Shown here: one piece after another, positions 50-57,649 of the stretch
Layout: each line of letters starts with the position of its first letter
How positions within the stretch are numbered: the stretch's first letter is position 1
Assembly (NCBI RefSeq): GCF_019443285.1
Contig: NZ_CP080327.1
Span: 1-64,000 of the forward strand
DNA from: Aquisediminimonas profunda
GTDB taxonomy: Bacteria > Pseudomonadota > Alphaproteobacteria > Sphingomonadales > Sphingomonadaceae
Reading direction: 5' to 3'
DNA: 64,000 nt
The notes under the pieces: generated by a model
Told to the model about the DNA's origin: nothing
What the model saw: the letters and a program-made list of their open reading frames with translations, nothing else
Databases searched by the model: none
Made by a program: the position numbers and the translations under genes

Positions 50-91
50 AAACGCCGATCGAGTGACGGGGTTGGCATTTTCATGATATCT

Positions 92-7320: not shown

Positions 7321-7728
7321 TTATTCCCCGGCCAGTTTCAGGATAATGTCCCAATGCTCATCACTGACCGGCACGACGGAAAGCCGTGACTGCCGGATAA
7401 GCGCAAGATCCGCCAACCGCGGATCGGCTTTCATCTGAGCCAATGTCACGAAGGATTTCACGGGTCTGACGGGCGCGACATCGACCATGACAAACCGCCC
7501 CGCCGGATCGCCCGGATCGGGATAAGCCGTCTTTACGATCTTCACGATCCCGACAATCTCCTTGCCTTCATTGCTGTGATAGAAAAAGGCCGTGTCGCCG
7601 ACCTTCATGGCCTTCAGGTTGATCGCAGCCTGATGGTTGCGGACCCCATCCCAATGCGTGCGGCCGTCGCTGACCATCATGTCCCAACTATATTTGTGCG
7701 GCTCGGACTTGAGCAGCCAATGGGCCAT
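7321..7728 (-). CDS. EVE domain-containing protein
   Basis: A 135-residue protein consisting of a single EVE domain, a PUA-like fold that binds modified bases in nucleic acids. Diagnostic segments are WLLKSEPHKYSWDMM at the N-terminus, HWDGVRNHQA, MKVGDTAFFYHSNEGKEIVG and the C-terminal LSVVPVSDEHWDIIL. It starts 3 bp after the MFS gene stop and is probably the last gene of that transcript. The biological target is not known for this subfamily. Confidence 0.93.
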   Translation of the reverse strand: MAHWLLKSEPHKYSWDMMVSDGRTHWDGVRNHQAAINLKAMKVGDTAFFYHSNEGKEIVGIVKIVKTAYPDPGDPAGRFVMVDVAPVRPVKSFVTLAQMKADPRLADLALIRQSRLSVVPVSDEHWDIILKLAGE

Positions 7729-7731
7729 GAT

Positions 7732-8979
7732 TCAGTCTCCTGTTCTTGTTGGTGGCGCATGATGCGCAACGAAGAATTTTCCGCGCTCTGTCACAAAGAC
7801 AATGATCAATGCAACGGTCCCGCATGCGCAATAGCCGAGATAGAGCGGAACGGTCGTTCCATCGAACGACCCGCCAATGATGGCGCCAATGACGGAGGCC
7901 GCAATGCTCGATACCGAACCCTGGAGCGAGCTTGCCATTCCGGCGACATGCCCCATGTTTTCCATCGCCATGGCGCCAAAATTCCCTGCGATGAGGGAAA
8001 ATCCCATCATCATGGCCGTCTGGAGCACGATGAAGCTGGTCAGCGTCTCATGGCCTGACAGGGCGACCAGCGCATGGAGCCCGGCGACTGTTGTAAAGAA
8101 GAAGAGCGCGGCATGGCCAATCTTGCGCATCCCGAAACGCCTGACGATTGCGGCATTCACCAGCGATGCACCTGCCATTCCGCTGGCCATGACCGCAAAT
8201 CCCACCGGCAGAAGATCGGGGCGCTCGAAGACATGCTGGAAAATGGGCTGAACCGACATCAGGAAGCCGAACAGGCCACAGGAAATGACGGCAATCGCCA
8301 GGCCATAGCCCAGGGACATCCGATCCGTGACGACGATCCGGGCGCTTCCGATGGCCGACGCGACCGAGATTGCCGTCCTGTTTTCGGGTGCGAGCGTTTC
8401 CGGCATGCGCACCATGACCCAAATCCAGACCGCCACGCCGATCATCGCCAGAACCGCAAAAATCCACCTCCATGTCGCGAAGGCCAGGACGATTTGGCCC
8501 ATTGTCGGCGCGAGGATCGGGGCGGCCATGAACACCATGCTGGCGAGACTCATGACCTGCGCCATTTCGCGTCCCTCATATCTGTCGCGGACGATGGACG
8601 TCACGATGACACGCGCGCCTGCACAGCCGATGCCCTGAACAAATCGTGCAACAAGGAGATGCTCAAACGTTGGCGCAAGCGATGCAGCCAGGCTGGTCAC
8701 GCCAAAAAAGAAGATCGCCCAGAGAATCGGGCTTCTGCGGCCATAGCGATCGGACAGCATGCCGACGAAAAGCTGGGAAACGCCGAATCCGGCCAGAAAT
8801 GCAGAGATCACCAGTGGCCAGCGGGATTCGTCGGCAACACCAAGCGAACTGCCGATTGCCGGCAAGGCCGGAAGCATGGAATCGATCGCGAAGGCGACGA
8901 TCATCATCACGACTGAAACGAGCAGCACGAACTCGATGCGGCCGGGGCCGACGGGCGAAGCAGAATTAACGGAGGACAT
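7732..8979 (-). CDS. MFS transporter, Bcr/CflA-type multidrug efflux family
   Basis: A 415-residue inner-membrane transporter with about 12 predicted helices. The N-terminal half includes FAIDSMLPALPAIG, the GMLSDRYGRRSPILWA loop (the MFS motif A between helices 2 and 3), and GIGCAGARVIVTSIVRDRY, which match the Bcr/CflA drug-resistance group. It follows the branched-chain dehydrogenase E2 gene by 34 bp on the same strand and may share its transcript. The substrate cannot be predicted. The ATG at 8979 has GGAG-like sequence in the preceding spacer only weakly. Confidence 0.88.
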   Translation of the reverse strand: MSSVNSASPVGPGRIEFVLLVSVVMMIVAFAIDSMLPALPAIGSSLGVADESRWPLVISAFLAGFGVSQLFVGMLSDRYGRRSPILWAIFFFGVTSLAASLAPTFEHLLVARFVQGIGCAGARVIVTSIVRDRYEGREMAQVMSLASMVFMAAPILAPTMGQIVLAFATWRWIFAVLAMIGVAVWIWVMVRMPETLAPENRTAISVASAIGSARIVVTDRMSLGYGLAIAVISCGLFGFLMSVQPIFQHVFERPDLLPVGFAVMASGMAGASLVNAAIVRRFGMRKIGHAALFFFTTVAGLHALVALSGHETLTSFIVLQTAMMMGFSLIAGNFGAMAMENMGHVAGMASSLQGSVSSIAASVIGAIIGGSFDGTTVPLYLGYCACGTVALIIVFVTERGKFFVAHHAPPTRTGD

Positions 8980-50728: not shown

Positions 50729-51958
50729 CTAACGCGCGCCAATGCGGTTGCGTGACGGAGCGGCGCCGGATCGCCGTAACGCCTGTGGCGAGCGACGCGC
50801 AGGCGGCCTGTCGATGCCGCCGGGAACAACTGGCCGAGCCGGCTGACCAAGTTGTGGAAAGGCCGTGTCCTGCGTGGGCTTGACCCGCCGGGTCTTCCAG
50901 AGAAGCTGCATGAGCGGACTTGCAGGGGGTGGCTCATCACGATCCGCGAAACTGATCTGAATCGCATGAAGGCCGCGGCGACACCCCTTTGCGCGACAAT
51001 CGCAAGCCATAGTCCATTGGGGGTCAACCTCCGACGTTGAATAGTCGAACGTAATTTCCTCCCCCTTGGCAATAGGCCGAAGAGCAAAGAGTTGGCGCTT
51101 CGGACCAAAACAGGCGTTGGGCTCACAACTGTGGTTGAGCTTGTTGAGCGGAGGATCGGGATCCATCCAGAGCCCGGGACCTAGGCCGACAAAATCGGGG
51201 TCCTGCCCGGTCCGTGAATTGCCATAGACCGTGCCGGTCATCGTCCAGATTTTTTCGCCAGCCGCAAACGGCCGCCCTGCAAAAACGCCTTCCCCAGCGA
51301 TCGGACTCGTATCGTGATAGATGAACGAGCCACCACCCCCGAAATAGCGTCCGGCGAGCGTCTTGCGCAAAGAAAACAATGCCATGGCAACATGGAGGAC
51401 CACGTTTGCAACCGGGTACATCAGCAGTACGGGCTGATCGAGGCCGGTCGTGACAAGCGTTGCGGCAGTCAGGAAGATATAGGCCAGCGACCAGACGATC
51501 CACGGCAATGGCTGTTCGCGTCTTGGATCCCGCCAGGTCGAACGCAGGATCGGCATGAACGATGTCAGCGTGGTGACATTGCCAAGAAACAGAAAGACGG
51601 CCGCATAGGCAGCTTTATCGACGTCGGCGAAGACCATCACCGCAAATCCGATCGTCAGCCACAAGTCCGCGGAAAAAATGATTGCTTCAAACCGGTCTAC
51701 AGGCTCTGTCGCATTCTTCCTCAGGCACATAAGGGCAACAATCACGCTCATCCCGGCGCAGGCAAACAACAGCAATAATTCAGCCAAAACCGCGCCATTC
51801 TGCCATGCAAGAAAGGCAACGAGCGACGTGCCGTAAGCAAACATCAAGTAACTGGCGGCATTGGGGCGAATTGATCGCCTGAGGAAGTTGCGGATGTAAA
51901 GGAGGTATCCAGAAATCTGGAATACCGCCGCCAATACACCCAGAACGCTACCGATCAC
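50729..51958 (-). CDS. Seven-helix membrane protein fused to a SET domain
   Basis: A 409-residue protein with an unusual plan. Residues 1-196 contain about seven hydrophobic helices (near 1-22, 35-53, 56-78, 90-112, 118-138, 151-171, 175-196); the first three and last three look like a repeat around a single linker helix, each ending in LRK. Residues about 213-331 form a SET domain: SPIAGEGVFA (218-227), NHSCEPN (275-281), GEEITFDY (299-306) and post-SET cysteines C319, C321, C326, which together with the NHSC cysteine could bind zinc. A basic, Pro-rich tail follows. The GTG at 51958 is chosen because GGGAGG lies 5-6 bp upstream; GTG at 51985 is an alternative. The methylated target is unknown. 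Confidence 0.87.
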   Translation of the reverse strand: MIGSVLGVLAAVFQISGYLLYIRNFLRRSIRPNAASYLMFAYGTSLVAFLAWQNGAVLAELLLLFACAGMSVIVALMCLRKNATEPVDRFEAIIFSADLWLTIGFAVMVFADVDKAAYAAVFLFLGNVTTLTSFMPILRSTWRDPRREQPLPWIVWSLAYIFLTAATLVTTGLDQPVLLMYPVANVVLHVAMALFSLRKTLAGRYFGGGGSFIYHDTSPIAGEGVFAGRPFAAGEKIWTMTGTVYGNSRTGQDPDFVGLGPGLWMDPDPPLNKLNHSCEPNACFGPKRQLFALRPIAKGEEITFDYSTSEVDPQWTMACDCRAKGCRRGLHAIQISFADRDEPPPASPLMQLLWKTRRVKPTQDTAFPQLGQPARPVVPGGIDRPPARRSPQALRRSGAAPSRNRIGAR

Positions 51959-51987: not shown

Positions 51988-52013
51988 GCGTTAACCATGA
52001 TCATGGTTAACGC
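51988..52013. promoter_or_regulatory. Perfect 26-bp palindrome in a divergent promoter region
   Basis: Each half reads GCGTTAACCATGA outward-in, symmetrical around the 52000/52001 axis without mismatch. It lies 30 bp upstream of the SET gene start on one side and 158 bp upstream of the GGDEF-EAL gene on the other. It is better read as an operator for a dimeric regulator than as a terminator because there is no loop or T-run. It contains TTAACC, but not the TTAA-N7-TTAA spacing of a full CtrA site. Confidence 0.8.
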
Positions 52014-52171
52014 ATTGTAATTCCATTATCTCATCGGGATTCCGCGGTCAAACGCTATTGCAATTGGTATATTTTTCACCGGTTTGACGATCTGAACGAG
52101 CGCGGGCTGACGGGCGCTCCTTTACGGTCTTTTAACGACGCTCCTTTAGATTGCCAGTCTGGGGCACCCGA

Positions 52172-54457
52172 ATGGCAATATTCTTGAAACGACCAGATTT
52201 CGCATCGACATCACCGGTGAAGAGGCTTGTCCTGCCGATGGTGCTTGTGATGCTTGGCCTTGCCATGCTGCTCCTCGGGGTCACGGTCTATTCCGGCAGG
52301 ACAATGGATCAGGACGCCATCGCACGCCAGCAAGCGCTGATCGACAATGCGTTCACGACACGTCTGAACAGTGCGGTCGGAGAATTGCGGAGCGTCGCCT
52401 GGTGGGATGATACGGTAAAATATACCGCGCCCGAAACGTTTGACCGGGACTGGCTGGACCGGGAAATCGGCAGCTACATGAATGAATCCTATCATCACGA
52501 CCGGCTGATCATCTTCGATGAACGCAACCGGCCGATCTATGTGCACGGCGAAGGCACTGGCCTTGGCAGCCGGCAACTTGCCATTGATGTTGCAGCAACA
52601 GTGCCCCTGTTGCGCCAAGCCCGTGGCGGTCCTGACGTGTCACCAAGGATCGAAACGAACGCGGGCAAAGGCGAACTTTATGAATATGGCGGCACGGACA
52701 ATCGCAAGTTCGGCCGCGGCATTGGTGCGATCATCAGAATTGAGGGCAAGCCGGCTCTCGCCACTGCTTTGCTGATTACACCGTCTTATGACATTGCCAA
52801 AACCTCGCCCACACGTCGTGTGGTGCTTTCGATTATTGACGTGACCCAGCCTGTGCTGACCGAAATCGGACGCAGCGCGTTGATGCCCGATCTTTCGTTC
52901 AGGCTCGCAAATGACAAGCGTCTGGGCAGTTTCGACCTGAAGACCGATGACGGGCAACTGCTTGCCAAATTGAACTGGACACCCAAACAGCCCGGCAGCG
53001 AAATGGTGCAACGGGTGCTCCCCGGCATCTTGTCAGTCATCGGCGCGGCTCTTGTCTTTCTTGTCATTCTGATGGGCCGATTGGTCACCTCGACAAAGCA
53101 GCTTGCCGCGCGAGAAGCCGATGCACGCTTTCTCGCCGACCATGACGCCTTGACCGGCCTGGCGAACAGGCGGCGGCTGGAAAGCCTGTTCGTGGACTTC
53201 TTCACAAAGCCGCAGCAGGTCCATCAAAGGGTCGCTGTTGCCTGTGTCGATCTTGATCGCTTCAAGGACATCAATGACACGCTGGGTCACAATGCAGGCG
53301 ACGAGCTCATCAAGGCAGTCGGCGAACGGCTGAAATCGAAGCTGAATCCGGATGACACGCTCGCTCGACTGGGCGGGGACGAATTTGCAATCATGCGACC
53401 GGTGCATTCCGAACAGGACGCAGACATTCTCTCTGACCTGATTGCAGACTGTTTTTCAGAGTCCTTCCTGGTCATGGGCCATTTGATCGAGGCCAATGCA
53501 TCGACAGGACTCGCCTTTGCGAGCAGCCAGAACAGCTTTGGCGATACGATCAAGCGCGCGGACATTGCGCTCTATAATGCGAAGGCAAACGGACGCGGAC
53601 GCCTGACCCGATTTACGAAGGCCATGGCGGACGAGATCGAACATCGCCATGCGATTCAGGTTGATCTGCGGCGCGCGCTGACCGAGCGGGAGTTGACGCT
53701 CAATTACCAACCGATTGTCGAAGCGGCATCGGGCGCCATCACTTCGGTTGAGGCTCTGCTGCGCTGGAACAGCCCGACGCATGGTTTCGTCCCGCCTGAC
53801 CTGTTCGTCTCAATTGCCGAAGAAGTCGGGCTGATGGCCGAACTCGGACGGTTCGTTATCGAACAGGCCATCGAGGACGCGCGACGCTGGCCGGAACTCA
53901 CGACGGCCATCAATATTTCGCCTGCGCAGCTGCGGTCTGCGACCATCCTGCATGACCTCCTCGAGCCCGCGAAGAGATTTGGCGTTTCACCGAGCCGGAT
54001 CACGATCGAGATCACGGAATCCGTCCTGATGTCGAGCGACGACCGCACGCTGCGTGTGCTCAACGAACTCAAGCGGCATGGCTTCACGCTCGCGCTTGAC
54101 GATTTCGGGACGGGCTATTCAAGTCTGGCCTATATTCGCGATTTCCCCTTCGACAAGCTCAAGATCGACCGCAGTTTCGTCCAAGGCCTGTCCGAGAGCG
54201 AGCGTTCTCTCGCGATCGTCGAAGGCGTCGTGAAATTCGGCAAGATCCTGGGCCGCGAAATTGTCGCAGAGGGAATCGAAACCGAAGCGGAAATGGCCGC
54301 GATGCAAAAGGCTGGCGCGACGCATCTTCAAGGCTACCTCTTCTCGCGCGCCCTTCCAGCTGATCATATCGAAGCGATCGCAGCGACATTCGGCACGACA
54401 AGCACGGCGACACCATCGCGCAAGACAGCCGCTCGACGGGCCCGCGCACTGAGCTAG
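52172..54457 (+). CDS. CHASE4-GGDEF-EAL cyclic-di-GMP signalling protein
   Basis: A 761-residue membrane protein. Helix 1 (about 20-40) and helix 2 (about 284-306) flank a periplasmic CHASE4 sensory domain. The diguanylate cyclase domain has an intact GGDEF at 401-405, and the phosphodiesterase domain has EALLRW (EAL at 527-529), the NISPAQL segment and DDFGTGYSSL at about 642, with KIDRSFV. Both catalytic signatures look intact, so the direction of activity cannot be predicted. The ATG at 52172 is chosen over TTG at 52151. It is divergent from the SET gene. Confidence 0.93.
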   Translation: MAIFLKRPDFASTSPVKRLVLPMVLVMLGLAMLLLGVTVYSGRTMDQDAIARQQALIDNAFTTRLNSAVGELRSVAWWDDTVKYTAPETFDRDWLDREIGSYMNESYHHDRLIIFDERNRPIYVHGEGTGLGSRQLAIDVAATVPLLRQARGGPDVSPRIETNAGKGELYEYGGTDNRKFGRGIGAIIRIEGKPALATALLITPSYDIAKTSPTRRVVLSIIDVTQPVLTEIGRSALMPDLSFRLANDKRLGSFDLKTDDGQLLAKLNWTPKQPGSEMVQRVLPGILSVIGAALVFLVILMGRLVTSTKQLAAREADARFLADHDALTGLANRRRLESLFVDFFTKPQQVHQRVAVACVDLDRFKDINDTLGHNAGDELIKAVGERLKSKLNPDDTLARLGGDEFAIMRPVHSEQDADILSDLIADCFSESFLVMGHLIEANASTGLAFASSQNSFGDTIKRADIALYNAKANGRGRLTRFTKAMADEIEHRHAIQVDLRRALTERELTLNYQPIVEAASGAITSVEALLRWNSPTHGFVPPDLFVSIAEEVGLMAELGRFVIEQAIEDARRWPELTTAINISPAQLRSATILHDLLEPAKRFGVSPSRITIEITESVLMSSDDRTLRVLNELKRHGFTLALDDFGTGYSSLAYIRDFPFDKLKIDRSFVQGLSESERSLAIVEGVVKFGKILGREIVAEGIETEAEMAAMQKAGATHLQGYLFSRALPADHIEAIAATFGTTSTATPSRKTAARRARALS

Positions 54458-54490: not shown

Positions 54491-55192
54491 CTAAGTGGCG
54501 AGCACGATGGCCCAAATACTGGCAAACCAAAGCAGCGCTCCGCCCGTGACTGCTTGGATGCGGCGCGCAAACGCCCAGTCATAGGCGAACAGAGCGAGGA
54601 AAAAGGAAACCCACACCGCAAACAAAGTCGGAAGGAAGACCGCATCGATCTGCGCCTCTGTCAAACCGGTCATGAACGGGACGAGGAGTTGATCATAGGC
54701 TCTTGCCAATATGGGCTCGAGCATGAAGAGCGTGCCTGTATACATGAAGCGCTTGTGCCGTTCCGGCGTTCGCCGGAAGCGGTAACCCAATCCGACGAAC
54801 AGGGCATAGCTCGGCAGCAAGAGCCGATTGGCTCTCACTTCGGGTGTCATTAAAGCCCAGCCCTTCCAGACAACGACAAAAACCCAGATTGTGCTGAGCG
54901 TAACCCCGATTGCAGCCACAAGCGCAAACATCCCAAGCTTGCGGTGCAGCCTGACGTTGCCTCGACTGACGAGCAGGCTTTGGGCCAGAAACGCAATCAT
55001 CCAACTCCCGCAAAAGAGGCCGTGGACAATGAATTTGGGATCACTGTTGCTGGGTTGCCCGACGTCGGTGAACAAATTGTCCGAAAAACCCGCTATGGTC
55101 AGGAAAAGCAGCAAAAGGCTGGCAATCGGGAAGAACCAGTTGCGACGACCGGACGCCTGAAAGCCGGTCCTGCCAAGTGTCTGCTCCGCCAT
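54491..55192 (-). CDS. Membrane protein of unknown function
   Basis: A 233-residue integral membrane protein with six to seven hydrophobic segments. Conserved-looking parts are KFIVHGLFCGSWMIAFLAQSLLV, NVRLHRKLGM (a charged His-containing loop) and RRTPERHKRFMYTGTLFML. The histidine pairs recall DUF2306/cytochrome-like membrane proteins, but no firm family is claimed. The ATG at 55192 gives MAEQTLGRTG. It is 33 bp convergent with the CHASE4 protein gene and 105 bp after the start of the next minus-strand gene's stop. Confidence 0.65.
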   Translation of the reverse strand: MAEQTLGRTGFQASGRRNWFFPIASLLLLFLTIAGFSDNLFTDVGQPSNSDPKFIVHGLFCGSWMIAFLAQSLLVSRGNVRLHRKLGMFALVAAIGVTLSTIWVFVVVWKGWALMTPEVRANRLLLPSYALFVGLGYRFRRTPERHKRFMYTGTLFMLEPILARAYDQLLVPFMTGLTEAQIDAVFLPTLFAVWVSFFLALFAYDWAFARRIQAVTGGALLWFASIWAIVLAT

Positions 55193-55297
55193 GTCGCTTG
55201 CTGACCCCCCACCCATGGAGGCCAAGCGTTGCACTTTTCAAATGCAAAGCCAATGCGAATCTGAACGCGCCGCAGCGTCTCGGTGCGACGGGTCCGA

Positions 55298-57649
55298 TCA
55301 GGCGACGGCGCGCTCCGGTTCAGCGCCAAGCAATGCGCGAGCTTCGGCGGCAGGCATTGGCCGACCGTAGAGATAGCCCTGAATCTTGCGGCAACCCAGG
55401 CGGTTTACCATGCGGCATTCTTCTTCGGTCTCAACACCTTCGGCCGTTGTCGTCATGCCCAGACTATCGGCCAAGGCAACGACGGCCCGAATGATGGCCA
55501 GACTTTCTGGCGCATTCTTTGCCGCACCTTGCACAAAGCTGCGATCCACCTTGATGGTCGAGAAGCGGGTCTTCGAGAGATAGCCAAGCGACGAATAGCC
55601 GGTGCCAAAGTCGTCAAGCGCAAGCCTGACGCCCATGGCCAGAATCTTGTCCAGCACGGCCACGGCATGCGTACCTTCGTGCATGAACACACTTTCGGTC
55701 ACTTCGACTTCGAGGCGATTTGGATCAAGCCCGGCCTGGGCCAATGCCGAAACGACCGTCGAGGCGAAACTGTTGTCGTGCAGCTGTTCTGCGGACACGT
55801 TGACGGCCACACGGACCGTCGCGGGCCATTTGGCGGCTTCCTTGCAGGCTGTCCGCAAGACCCACTCACCAATCGGTCCGATCAGACGGGCATCCTCCGC
55901 AATCGGGATGAATTTGGCTGGCGAGACGGTCCCCAGCTCCGGATTGGTCCAGCGAAGCAATGCCTCAAAGCTCTCGATCGTCCCGGACTGTGCATTCACG
56001 ACCGGCTGGTAGTGAACCTCGAACTCATTCCGTTCGAGCGCCTTGCGCAGCGCAATCTCTATGACACGGCGTTCTTCTGCATGAACGTGCAACTGCGGCT
56101 CGTAGCAGTGAAACACGCCGCCGCCTTCATCCTTGGAACGATAGAGCGCAAGGTCGGCCGACCGGATCAGTGTTTCGACCGTACGTCCGTCTCTTGGCCC
56201 AATCGCGGTTCCGATGCTTGCCCCGATATAAAGCGTGTACTGATCAACCTCATAGGGCTGCGACAAGGTGTCGATGATAGACTGTGCAAGCTTGGCCATC
56301 TTTGCAGGATCGTTCGCGTCTTTCACGACAACGGCAAACTCATCCCCGCCAAGGCGGCCGCAAAGTTCGTTCTCGCTCATGATCGAGCGGAGCCGCTCAG
56401 AGACGCGGGTCAGCAGGCGGTCTCCAATTGGATGCCCAAGCGTGTCATTCACGGCCTTGAAGCGGTCAAGGTCAATCATCATGAAGCCACAGCGGCTGCG
56501 CCAACGTTCGGCCTCGGACATTGCAATTGCGAGAGTCTCGTTGACAAGAAGCCGGTTGGGCATGCCCGTCAGCGTGTCATAACGGGCCATGCGGTTGATC
56601 TTGTCCGCACTGCGGCGTTGTTCCGTCACGTCAGAGCCGACACCGCGGAATCCAAGAAATGCTCCACTTTCGTCGTAGCGGGGAGACGCGGACAGCTCCC
56701 ACCAGCGCGTGACACCGTCGATCTGTACGGGCAGAACAAGATCGCTGAAGCTTTCCCTGTTCTTGAGCTTGTCGGCAAGTTCACGCAGGCCTGCAGGGAA
56801 ATTGCCCGCCTCCCAGGTGTCACCCGCTATGATCTGCAAAAGCGGCTTTGTTTCGAGCGCCGTAGGCTCGACCCCAAGCGCAACAGCAAGGCGCGGCGAA
56901 ACATGCGTCAGGCAGCGCGATGCATCCGTCTGCCACATCCAGTCGCCGCCTGAATCTTCATATTCGCGAAGCAGGAGGCTGACGACCTCGGTTTTCTCCC
57001 TCAGAACGAGCTGATTGAGCTTGTGCAGAATGATTGTGCGGCCATTGACGAGGCAGGCGGCAGTCAGGGCAACCGAATAGGCAATGGCTGTCACGGCAAT
57101 CAGCGGCATGCCAAGCCGGTACATCATGAAGGCCAGTCCGGACCCGACAGTCATCAGGAAGCATGCAGTGGCAGCCGGCACGGCAGACAAGGCAAAGGCA
57201 GCGCAACCCATCATCGCGGTCGCAACCGACCAGACGGTCAGAACCTGGTCGCGGCCGCCATCAATGCCAAGCGTGATCGGCAAGGCTGTCCAGCAGAGGG
57301 CCGCGGCAACAAGGCTCAATGTTTCCCGGTGCAGTTCCAGTCGCGTTGCCATCACCGCATAACCACGATTACTGCGGATATGTGGCCAGGCAAGCAGCGA
57401 CGATACGACAACGACACCGGCAAACCAGCCGAGAAGAACCGGCGGAGACGCAGTTGGTCCGAGTGTCGCCACGACCACACAGCCTGCCATGATGCTCACC
57501 GCCAAGCGGAGCAAGGCAAAGTTCTGCACGAGATTGATCTGTTCTGCGCGCACGCGCGCCCACTCCTCCGTCCCCGGGTCCTTGATGCCGAGGAGGGTCA
57601 GCCAGTCATGGCTGGTATCAGTCTGGGTCGACTTGTTACGCTTTTTCAC
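55298..57649 (-). CDS. Membrane PAS-GGDEF-EAL cyclic-di-GMP signalling protein
   Basis: A 783-residue protein. About six transmembrane helices (residues 45-205) form an integral membrane sensor, followed by a PAS domain (about 240-345, with CLTHVSPRLAVALGVEP and GFRGVGSDVTEQR), a GGDEF domain with intact GGDEF near 433-437, and an EAL domain with FEALLRW (EAL 562-564) and DDFGTGYSSLGYL. The start is GTG at 57649. It has no clear operon partners. With the CHASE4 protein it gives two complete hybrid cyclase/phosphodiesterases within 6 kb. Confidence 0.93.
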   Translation of the reverse strand: MKKRNKSTQTDTSHDWLTLLGIKDPGTEEWARVRAEQINLVQNFALLRLAVSIMAGCVVVATLGPTASPPVLLGWFAGVVVVSSLLAWPHIRSNRGYAVMATRLELHRETLSLVAAALCWTALPITLGIDGGRDQVLTVWSVATAMMGCAAFALSAVPAATACFLMTVGSGLAFMMYRLGMPLIAVTAIAYSVALTAACLVNGRTIILHKLNQLVLREKTEVVSLLLREYEDSGGDWMWQTDASRCLTHVSPRLAVALGVEPTALETKPLLQIIAGDTWEAGNFPAGLRELADKLKNRESFSDLVLPVQIDGVTRWWELSASPRYDESGAFLGFRGVGSDVTEQRRSADKINRMARYDTLTGMPNRLLVNETLAIAMSEAERWRSRCGFMMIDLDRFKAVNDTLGHPIGDRLLTRVSERLRSIMSENELCGRLGGDEFAVVVKDANDPAKMAKLAQSIIDTLSQPYEVDQYTLYIGASIGTAIGPRDGRTVETLIRSADLALYRSKDEGGGVFHCYEPQLHVHAEERRVIEIALRKALERNEFEVHYQPVVNAQSGTIESFEALLRWTNPELGTVSPAKFIPIAEDARLIGPIGEWVLRTACKEAAKWPATVRVAVNVSAEQLHDNSFASTVVSALAQAGLDPNRLEVEVTESVFMHEGTHAVAVLDKILAMGVRLALDDFGTGYSSLGYLSKTRFSTIKVDRSFVQGAAKNAPESLAIIRAVVALADSLGMTTTAEGVETEEECRMVNRLGCRKIQGYLYGRPMPAAEARALLGAEPERAVA

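Follow-up and report, generated by a model that had tools for sequence, protein, structure and literature searches.

A predicted seven-helix membrane domain fused to a SET domain recurs beside sensor genes in sphingomonads

Introduction

SWEET proteins and cystinosin are transporters, the latter carrying an amino acid, and the KDEL receptor is a receptor with a PQ-loop-type fold. CheR, the enzyme of chemoreceptor methylation, methylates glutamate and is not a SET enzyme, and among histone SET enzymes the F/Y switch is a position of known role. Bacterial SET proteins have been reported as host-directed effectors, as chromatin modifiers and as a methionine enzyme (for instance PMC3980110 and PMC12542666). 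The methionine enzyme, BurB, methylates free methionine to S-methylmethionine and holds Met through main-chain atoms (PMC12542666). The building blocks of the protein described here are known already; what appears to be new is the pairing of a seven-helix membrane domain (7TM) with a SET domain and the link of this pair to sensors. Among the matches listed in a search of the open-access literature (titles and abstract starts; subscription papers lie mostly outside it), neither this pairing nor any membrane-bound or sensor-linked bacterial SET protein was found.

Results

A single gene encodes both domains

The DNA analyzed is a stretch of 64,000 nt from Aquisediminimonas profunda (GCF_019443285.1, NZ_CP080327.1, positions 1-64,000 of the forward strand), referred to here as the window. 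The fusion gene lies on its minus strand as a single uninterrupted open reading frame (ORF). Of two candidate start codons, GTG 51958 is more likely the true start than GTG 51985, because GGGAGG lies just upstream of it and trimmed close relatives begin at about this position; residues are numbered throughout from GTG 51985, that is, in the 418-aa form. NCBIfam gave no family for the fusion protein, and residues 1-224 were unmatched there too. The features of the locus are as follows.

50729-51958, minus strand: 7TM-SET fusion gene, encoding 409 aa when started at GTG 51958 (418 aa from the alternative GTG 51985)
51350-51958, minus strand: seven-helix membrane domain, predicted to have the SWEET/cystinosin/KDEL-receptor fold, with the N-terminus out and the C-terminus in
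50966-51322, minus strand: SET and post-SET domain, residues 222-340, with Pfam, PDB and fold matches; predicted cytoplasmic
51125-51136, minus strand: NHSC motif (N284 H285 S286 C287), of which N, H and C are invariant in 13 fusions
51041-51043, minus strand: Tyr315, predicted catalytic, aligned with the DY of KMT2A and invariant in 13 fusions
50981-51004, minus strand: post-SET CxCx4C (C328 C330 C335), invariant in 13 fusions
52151-54457, plus strand: CHASE4-GGDEF-EAL gene, divergent neighbor and proposed partner, from Pfam and context comparison
51988-52013, no strand assigned: perfect 26-bp palindrome between the two divergent genes, a possible operator that is given no weight

The SET domain keeps its active-site residues

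An earlier note on this DNA had assigned all SET signatures to the C-terminal half, and the motifs it quoted, SPIAGEGVFA, NHSCEPN, GEEITFDY and CxCx4C, all occur in the window protein. The match to Pfam SET (PF00856) scored 43 bits (E 6.4e-11), above the curated cut-off of 22.4. Structures of both KMT2 type and BurB were matched. Single-sequence searches of the PDB returned KMT2A at 8.8e-11 and BurB at 4.4e-6, and profile searches returned the same two at 1.2e-24 and 9.1e-14, favoring KMT2 entries. By fold the comparison was a near-tie, with BurB at Z 14.6 (rmsd 6.4, 143 residues aligned), ASH1L at Z 14.5, MLL4 at Z 14.4 (rmsd 2.6, 123 aligned) and MLL1 at Z 14.2 (rmsd 2.5, 119 aligned).

N284, H285, C287, Y315, C328, C330 and C335, together with D314, are invariant in an alignment of 13 fusions, and in a larger alignment the first seven of these are unchanged in 3/3 fusions of type A and in all 25 rows of type B that carry a letter (the two types are described below). 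In rows from Patescibacteria, where the two domains are encoded by separate genes, N284, H285, C287, C328, C330 and C335 are kept in 8/8, and the position of Y315 holds eight Y and one F; the SET rows number eight, so the ninth letter must come from a membrane-domain row. Tyr315 of the DY pair is presumably the catalytic tyrosine, and we take C328, C330 and C335, with C287, to be zinc ligands. The F/Y switch position is variable, with F in the window protein, I in one close relative and L in another, W in 25/25 type B rows and I (five), V, M, F and R (one each) in Patescibacteria; by reading of an alignment, BurB has M there. This variability counts against the reading preferred below, in which lysines of a partner sensor are methylated. 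Because BurB grips Met by its main chain, sequence does not decide whether a methionine pocket is present.

The membrane domain is predicted to adopt a SWEET-like fold

AlphaFold2, given 45 sequences (the window protein and relatives), produced a model of mean pLDDT 81 in which seven helices (residues 2-35, 43-62, 67-89, 98-119, 124-152, 159-180 and 186-211) are followed by the SET beta fold, and residues 369-418 have pLDDT <50; the model agrees with the integral membrane N-terminal half that had been proposed. The membrane part modeled alone reached pLDDT 91 and pTM 0.87. With a structure aligner, the top 16 entries for this part were without exception structures of SWEET, cystinosin or the KDEL receptor (Z 11.0-13.7 and rmsd 3.8-4.8 over 180-208 aligned residues, at 6-10% identity), and the next entry had Z 6.6. 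Since unrelated helical bundles can reach Z 13, the case for the fold rests on the drop after row 16 and on the near-full coverage. Foldseek gave weak E-values, the best being 1.3e-3 for cystinosin. In sequence searches, Pfam matched nothing above cut-off in residues 1-224 (best Ceramidase, E 0.17), its SWEET and PQ-loop models matched neither the window's domain up to E 10 nor 10 relatives up to E 1, and a profile search of the domain against PDB sequences found nothing credible (best E 0.45). The likeness to SWEET/PQ-loop proteins claimed earlier is thus borne out by the predicted fold and not by Pfam; as these models gave no match, the domain is credited with the fold, and family membership is not assigned.

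The same note had seen a duplicated unit in a 3-1-3 arrangement. Local profile comparison of helices 1-3 with helices 5-7 scored 31.8 (P 1.2e-5, probability 81%); none of 40 column shuffles exceeded 19.3, and the reversed control reached 17.7. These scores argue for the duplication; global mode was weaker (probability 30%). Other triplets scored 26.3 (2-4 with 5-7) and 21.0 (1-3 with 4-6), and their printed ranges are in the same register. The LRK said to end each unit does so in the window (88-90 and 206-208), but is only partly kept in type A and absent from type B rows. Lysine and arginine number 4, 3, 4 and 3 in loops 1-2, 3-4 and 5-6 and the C-terminus, and 0, 0, 1 and 0 in the N-terminus and loops 2-3, 4-5 and 6-7. 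By the positive-inside rule, this distribution predicts that the N-terminus is outside and the SET domain cytoplasmic. Stand-alone proteins of the 7TM family were also seen at L100 (1492-2758, in tandem), L091, L095, L098, L104, L105 and L004, and the six of these loci that were scanned (all but L104) had no Pfam family above cut-off.

These matches bear on a reading in which a small-molecule methyltransferase is joined to a transporter, so that the 7TM domain moves an amino acid or kin, the SET domain methylates the cargo, and the sensors control this process or react to it. Transport is the known function of cystinosin and SWEET proteins, and the F/Y switch position is non-aromatic in 2/3 type A proteins and in the Patescibacteria rows bar one F. 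BurB ranks near the top of the structures matched by the full model, and it methylates methionine (PMC12542666). However, the SET profiles favor KMT2 over BurB by the values given above, the recurring neighbors are sensors, and a SAM synthetase gene was recognized near the module in one locus only (L170), a count from no systematic search. We think this reading unlikely, and prefer one in which a membrane SET methyltransferase modifies a partner sensor.

The fusion recurs in Sphingomonadales

Matches spanning both halves were found in 13/397 genomes of the family, four of them type A (the window's genome G000, G071, G085 and G211) and nine type B, so that the fusion is not absent from relatives; together with the SET match and the predicted helices, this goes against each outcome that the earlier note would have taken as refutation. 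A draw from the order, which overlaps the family draw, contained the fusion in 15/296 genomes; in a draw of 385 genomes from the class it occurred only in the window's own genome, and the other matches at E 1e-12 covered only SET or only 7TM. Scanning a single genome for each species recovered at least 52 fused ORFs among the best 80 of 459 relatives, all with Sphingomonadales titles except L124 (uncultured bacterium) and L145 (Arthrobacter). Carriers include Aquisediminimonas sediminicola, Sphingomonas leidyi, S. echinoides, S. mali and Stakelama sediminis. The L145 contig, titled Arthrobacter sp. TPD3018, bears a sphingomonad-type locus and is placed by the tree inside Sphingomonas; it is probably misnamed. 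A genome scan with the lone window protein returned no relatives, and an alignment-based scan found them. Plasmid records gave five matches, every one to the SET part alone.

This recurrence of the architecture is more than chance. Its patchy occurrence, and one metagenome-assembled genome (MAG; L182) in which the 7TM and SET parts lie in different overlapping frames, are what a chance fusion, a frameshift or a pseudogene might leave behind; against this, the frame is open in many genomes and the active-site residues are conserved, and such an artifact is extremely improbable. Additional SET genes were seen at some loci: a SET-only gene lies directly upstream of the type B 7TM-SET gene in L037 (414-998; 44% identical to the window SET) and in L182 (9076-9687). 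In L112, an additional fusion and an additional CHASE4 kinase are present as fragments (7363-7668 and 8230-8799) beside the intact copies.

A split form occurs in Patescibacteria

Among the best 80 of 459 relatives were eight loci at which 7TM and SET are adjacent genes on the same strand, 7TM first. Their titles (Paceibacterota, Zambryskibacteria, Kaiserbacteria, Paceibacter, Harrisonbacteria and Nomurabacteria) are ones we take to denote Patescibacteria. In 8/8, the next gene on the same strand encodes a histidine kinase of 547-566 aa, with Pfam matches to HATPase_c in 8/8, HisKA in 5/8 and HisKA_7TM in 2/8. These loci ranked high because both halves match, so their number is no measure of frequency; in Patescibacteria draws of 286 and 132 genomes the triad was rare, being found only in the centre genome, and these draws also held lone SET and lone 7TM genes. 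In two of 20 loci examined (L154 and L178), such a kinase follows a SET gene and there is no 7TM gene, the kinase of L154 being split over two overlapping ORFs. A protein that matches the kinase half only is encoded next to a lone SET gene in both L197 and L198.

Two further observations were made in these sets. The SAM synthetase gene of L170 (1575-2648, Candidatus Nomurabacteria) lies two genes upstream of the 7TM-SET-kinase operon. Proteins with two SET stretches, of 315 and 329 aa, are encoded at L166 (8971-9915) and L187 (8923-9909), from Candidatus Peribacteria and Magasanikbacteria.

Trees suggest at least two fusions

In a tree of the 7TM domain, type B stood apart, and type A joined the domains of two Patescibacteria triads with support of 100/99; in a tree of the SET domain, a set of 18 supported at 98/95 united type A with the SETs of all eight triads and with seven lone ones. 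A single clade of A and B fusions was rejected for the 7TM domain (p 0.013) and for the SET domain (p 0.011), in tests whose clade groups were named after the trees were viewed and whose rows include long branches. Type A was represented by three rows (window, L116 and L117), the G211 row being left out, and type B by 21/62 fusions in the 7TM tree and by 21/62, then 10/62, in the SET trees; the later SET tree dropped 29 loci as long-branched or redundant, nine of them apparently BurB-like, and BurB itself was not among the tree sequences. Because one shared fusion clade is rejected, at least two separate fusions and one gene pair would be the simplest reading of these sequences. With two fusion lineages, and a split operon in another phylum-level group, the pairing of 7TM and SET is hard to call an accident.

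Sensor genes neighbor both forms

Sensor genes recur beside the fusion and the split form, which the earlier note did not mention. In the window, the fusion gene is head to head with the CHASE4-GGDEF-EAL gene, and this divergent pairing is present in 3/3 type A fusions with context (window, G211 and G071). In G085, the fusion occupies the start of one contig, and a CHASE4-sensor relative is near the end of another, of 5540 bases; as these parts sit at the ends of different contigs, adjacency cannot be judged there. The G085 fusion contig opens with what is presumably a transposase end. The palindrome between the divergent window genes, which we regard as reminiscent of CtrA half-sites, has a 22-bp core with no second copy in the genome at up to 3 mismatches, and its half-site is absent from the other type A intergenic stretches examined. 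A second GGDEF-EAL gene, with PAS (55298-57649, minus strand), lies about 0.8 kb past the CHASE4-GGDEF-EAL gene, from which it is separated by one ORF (54491-55234).

At type B loci, relatives of a CHASE4 kinase and of a REC-GGDEF-EAL protein are adjacent to the fusion or within about 6 kb in 15/18, and this pair was not found nearby in L043, L108 and L114; neighbor domains were checked with Pfam in L037, L039, L047 and the window, and elsewhere by BLAST. At the type B locus L191, from Sphingomonas leidyi DSM 4733, 77 bp separate the fusion from a CHASE4-kinase ORF. In a wider type B set, drawn from the best 80 of 459 relatives, the kinase was present in 35/49 loci, some of the 14 without it being on short contigs. 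Added to the 15 earlier positives, this gives a kinase in 50 of 64 type B loci, a count that leaves out the three earlier negatives (one recurs as L126) and combines sets that overlap in genomes. When 13 neighborhoods were clustered without supervision, a GGDEF/EAL cluster appeared in 11 and a kinase cluster in 7, and, besides the fusion, only these two were found in more than two of the 13.

The partners also co-occur with the fusion across genomes. Of 109 genomes, only G000, G071 and G085, three of the four with a type A fusion, matched the N-terminal 321 residues of the window partner below 1e-69, the next best being 2.0e-30; G211 also has a CHASE4-GGDEF-EAL gene and evidently lies outside that draw. 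The CHASE4 kinase was found at 1e-90 in 7/298 genomes, six times near a type B fusion (once about 6 kb away), and the weakest match (G319, 1.7e-96, 35% identity) is in a genome without the fusion. Over its 3.4 Mb the window's genome encodes 10 GGDEF domains, which makes chance adjacency to the fusion unlikely. These data indicate that both fusion lineages share the theme of a CHASE4 sensor with GGDEF-EAL output, present as one protein in type A and as a two-component pair in type B.

Two other readings are affected by this linkage. The 7TM domain might be a mere anchor, with the SET domain methylating assorted membrane-proximal proteins and the sensors adjoining through shared regulation or inheritance. 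Stand-alone 7TM proteins and stand-alone SET genes exist, so the parts can act apart, and some fusions have no sensors nearby; yet both phylum-level groups and both fusion lineages show the linkage, with sensors of different types, and sensor orthologues co-occur with the fusion, so that an anchor has, in our judgment, only a small chance of being the right account. Alternatively, the 7TM domain could be a sensor whose SET output acts on a soluble or DNA-associated target, with the kinase and GGDEF-EAL proteins as parallel branches. The KDEL receptor, which is among the fold matches, illustrates that the fold can be a receptor, but no such target gene is common to more than two of the 13 clustered neighborhoods, and we regard this possibility as very unlikely. 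From gene linkage alone it does not follow that the substrate is the sensor. A target lysine was sought among conserved residues of the partner kinases, which have a few near-invariant lysines but offered no clear candidate.

Discussion

The reading preferred here, that a membrane SET methyltransferase modifies a partner sensor and thereby tunes two-component or c-di-GMP signaling, has in our estimation an even chance of being correct. The fusion protein would sit in the inner membrane, where its seven-helix domain of predicted SWEET/PQ-loop fold would keep the SET domain at the cytoplasmic side and may itself be ligand-binding, like the KDEL receptor. Using SAM, the SET domain would methylate one or more lysines on the cytoplasmic side of the partner, which we infer to be the divergent CHASE4-GGDEF-EAL protein in the window and, elsewhere, either a CHASE4 kinase or a membrane kinase with multiple helices. 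Methylation may then change kinase or c-di-GMP output, with an effect like that of chemoreceptor methylation. More tentatively, the protein could represent a new kind of bacterial signal transduction, in which a ligand-binding seven-helix receptor has a SET output that lysine-methylates c-di-GMP enzymes or sensor kinases. Fusion in sphingomonads would have produced it at least two times, and some Patescibacteria would have kept it as a three-gene operon; we hold this fuller version to be rather doubtful.

If the preferred reading is true, a sensor-tied membrane SET enzyme would be a lysine-methylation arm in bacterial membrane signaling, and the linkage to sensors suggests that bacteria may tune such signaling with SET enzymes. 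The partner that co-occurs with the fusion can be named as a candidate substrate, which makes the proposal directly testable.

Compared with known systems, the membrane domain is similar to SWEET, cystinosin and the KDEL receptor in its seven predicted helices, duplicated 3-1-3 arrangement and fold score; the window protein differs from them in its low identity, in lacking a Pfam sequence match and in carrying a SET domain. Chemoreceptor methylation by CheR would be alike in the SAM-dependent modification of a membrane sensor, if the function inferred here is right. BurB (9l4t, 9l4v), a SET methionine S-methyltransferase, is likewise a bacterial SET enzyme of similar fold, but is a weaker profile match than KMT2, and the available part of its description mentions no membrane domain (PMC12542666). 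The KMT2/MLL lysine methyltransferases (PF00856), the best PDB sequence matches of the window SET domain, share with it the SET fold, NHSC, the DY tyrosine and the post-SET CxCx4C, whereas the window protein is bacterial, is fused to a 7TM domain and belongs to a family in which the F/Y switch position varies.
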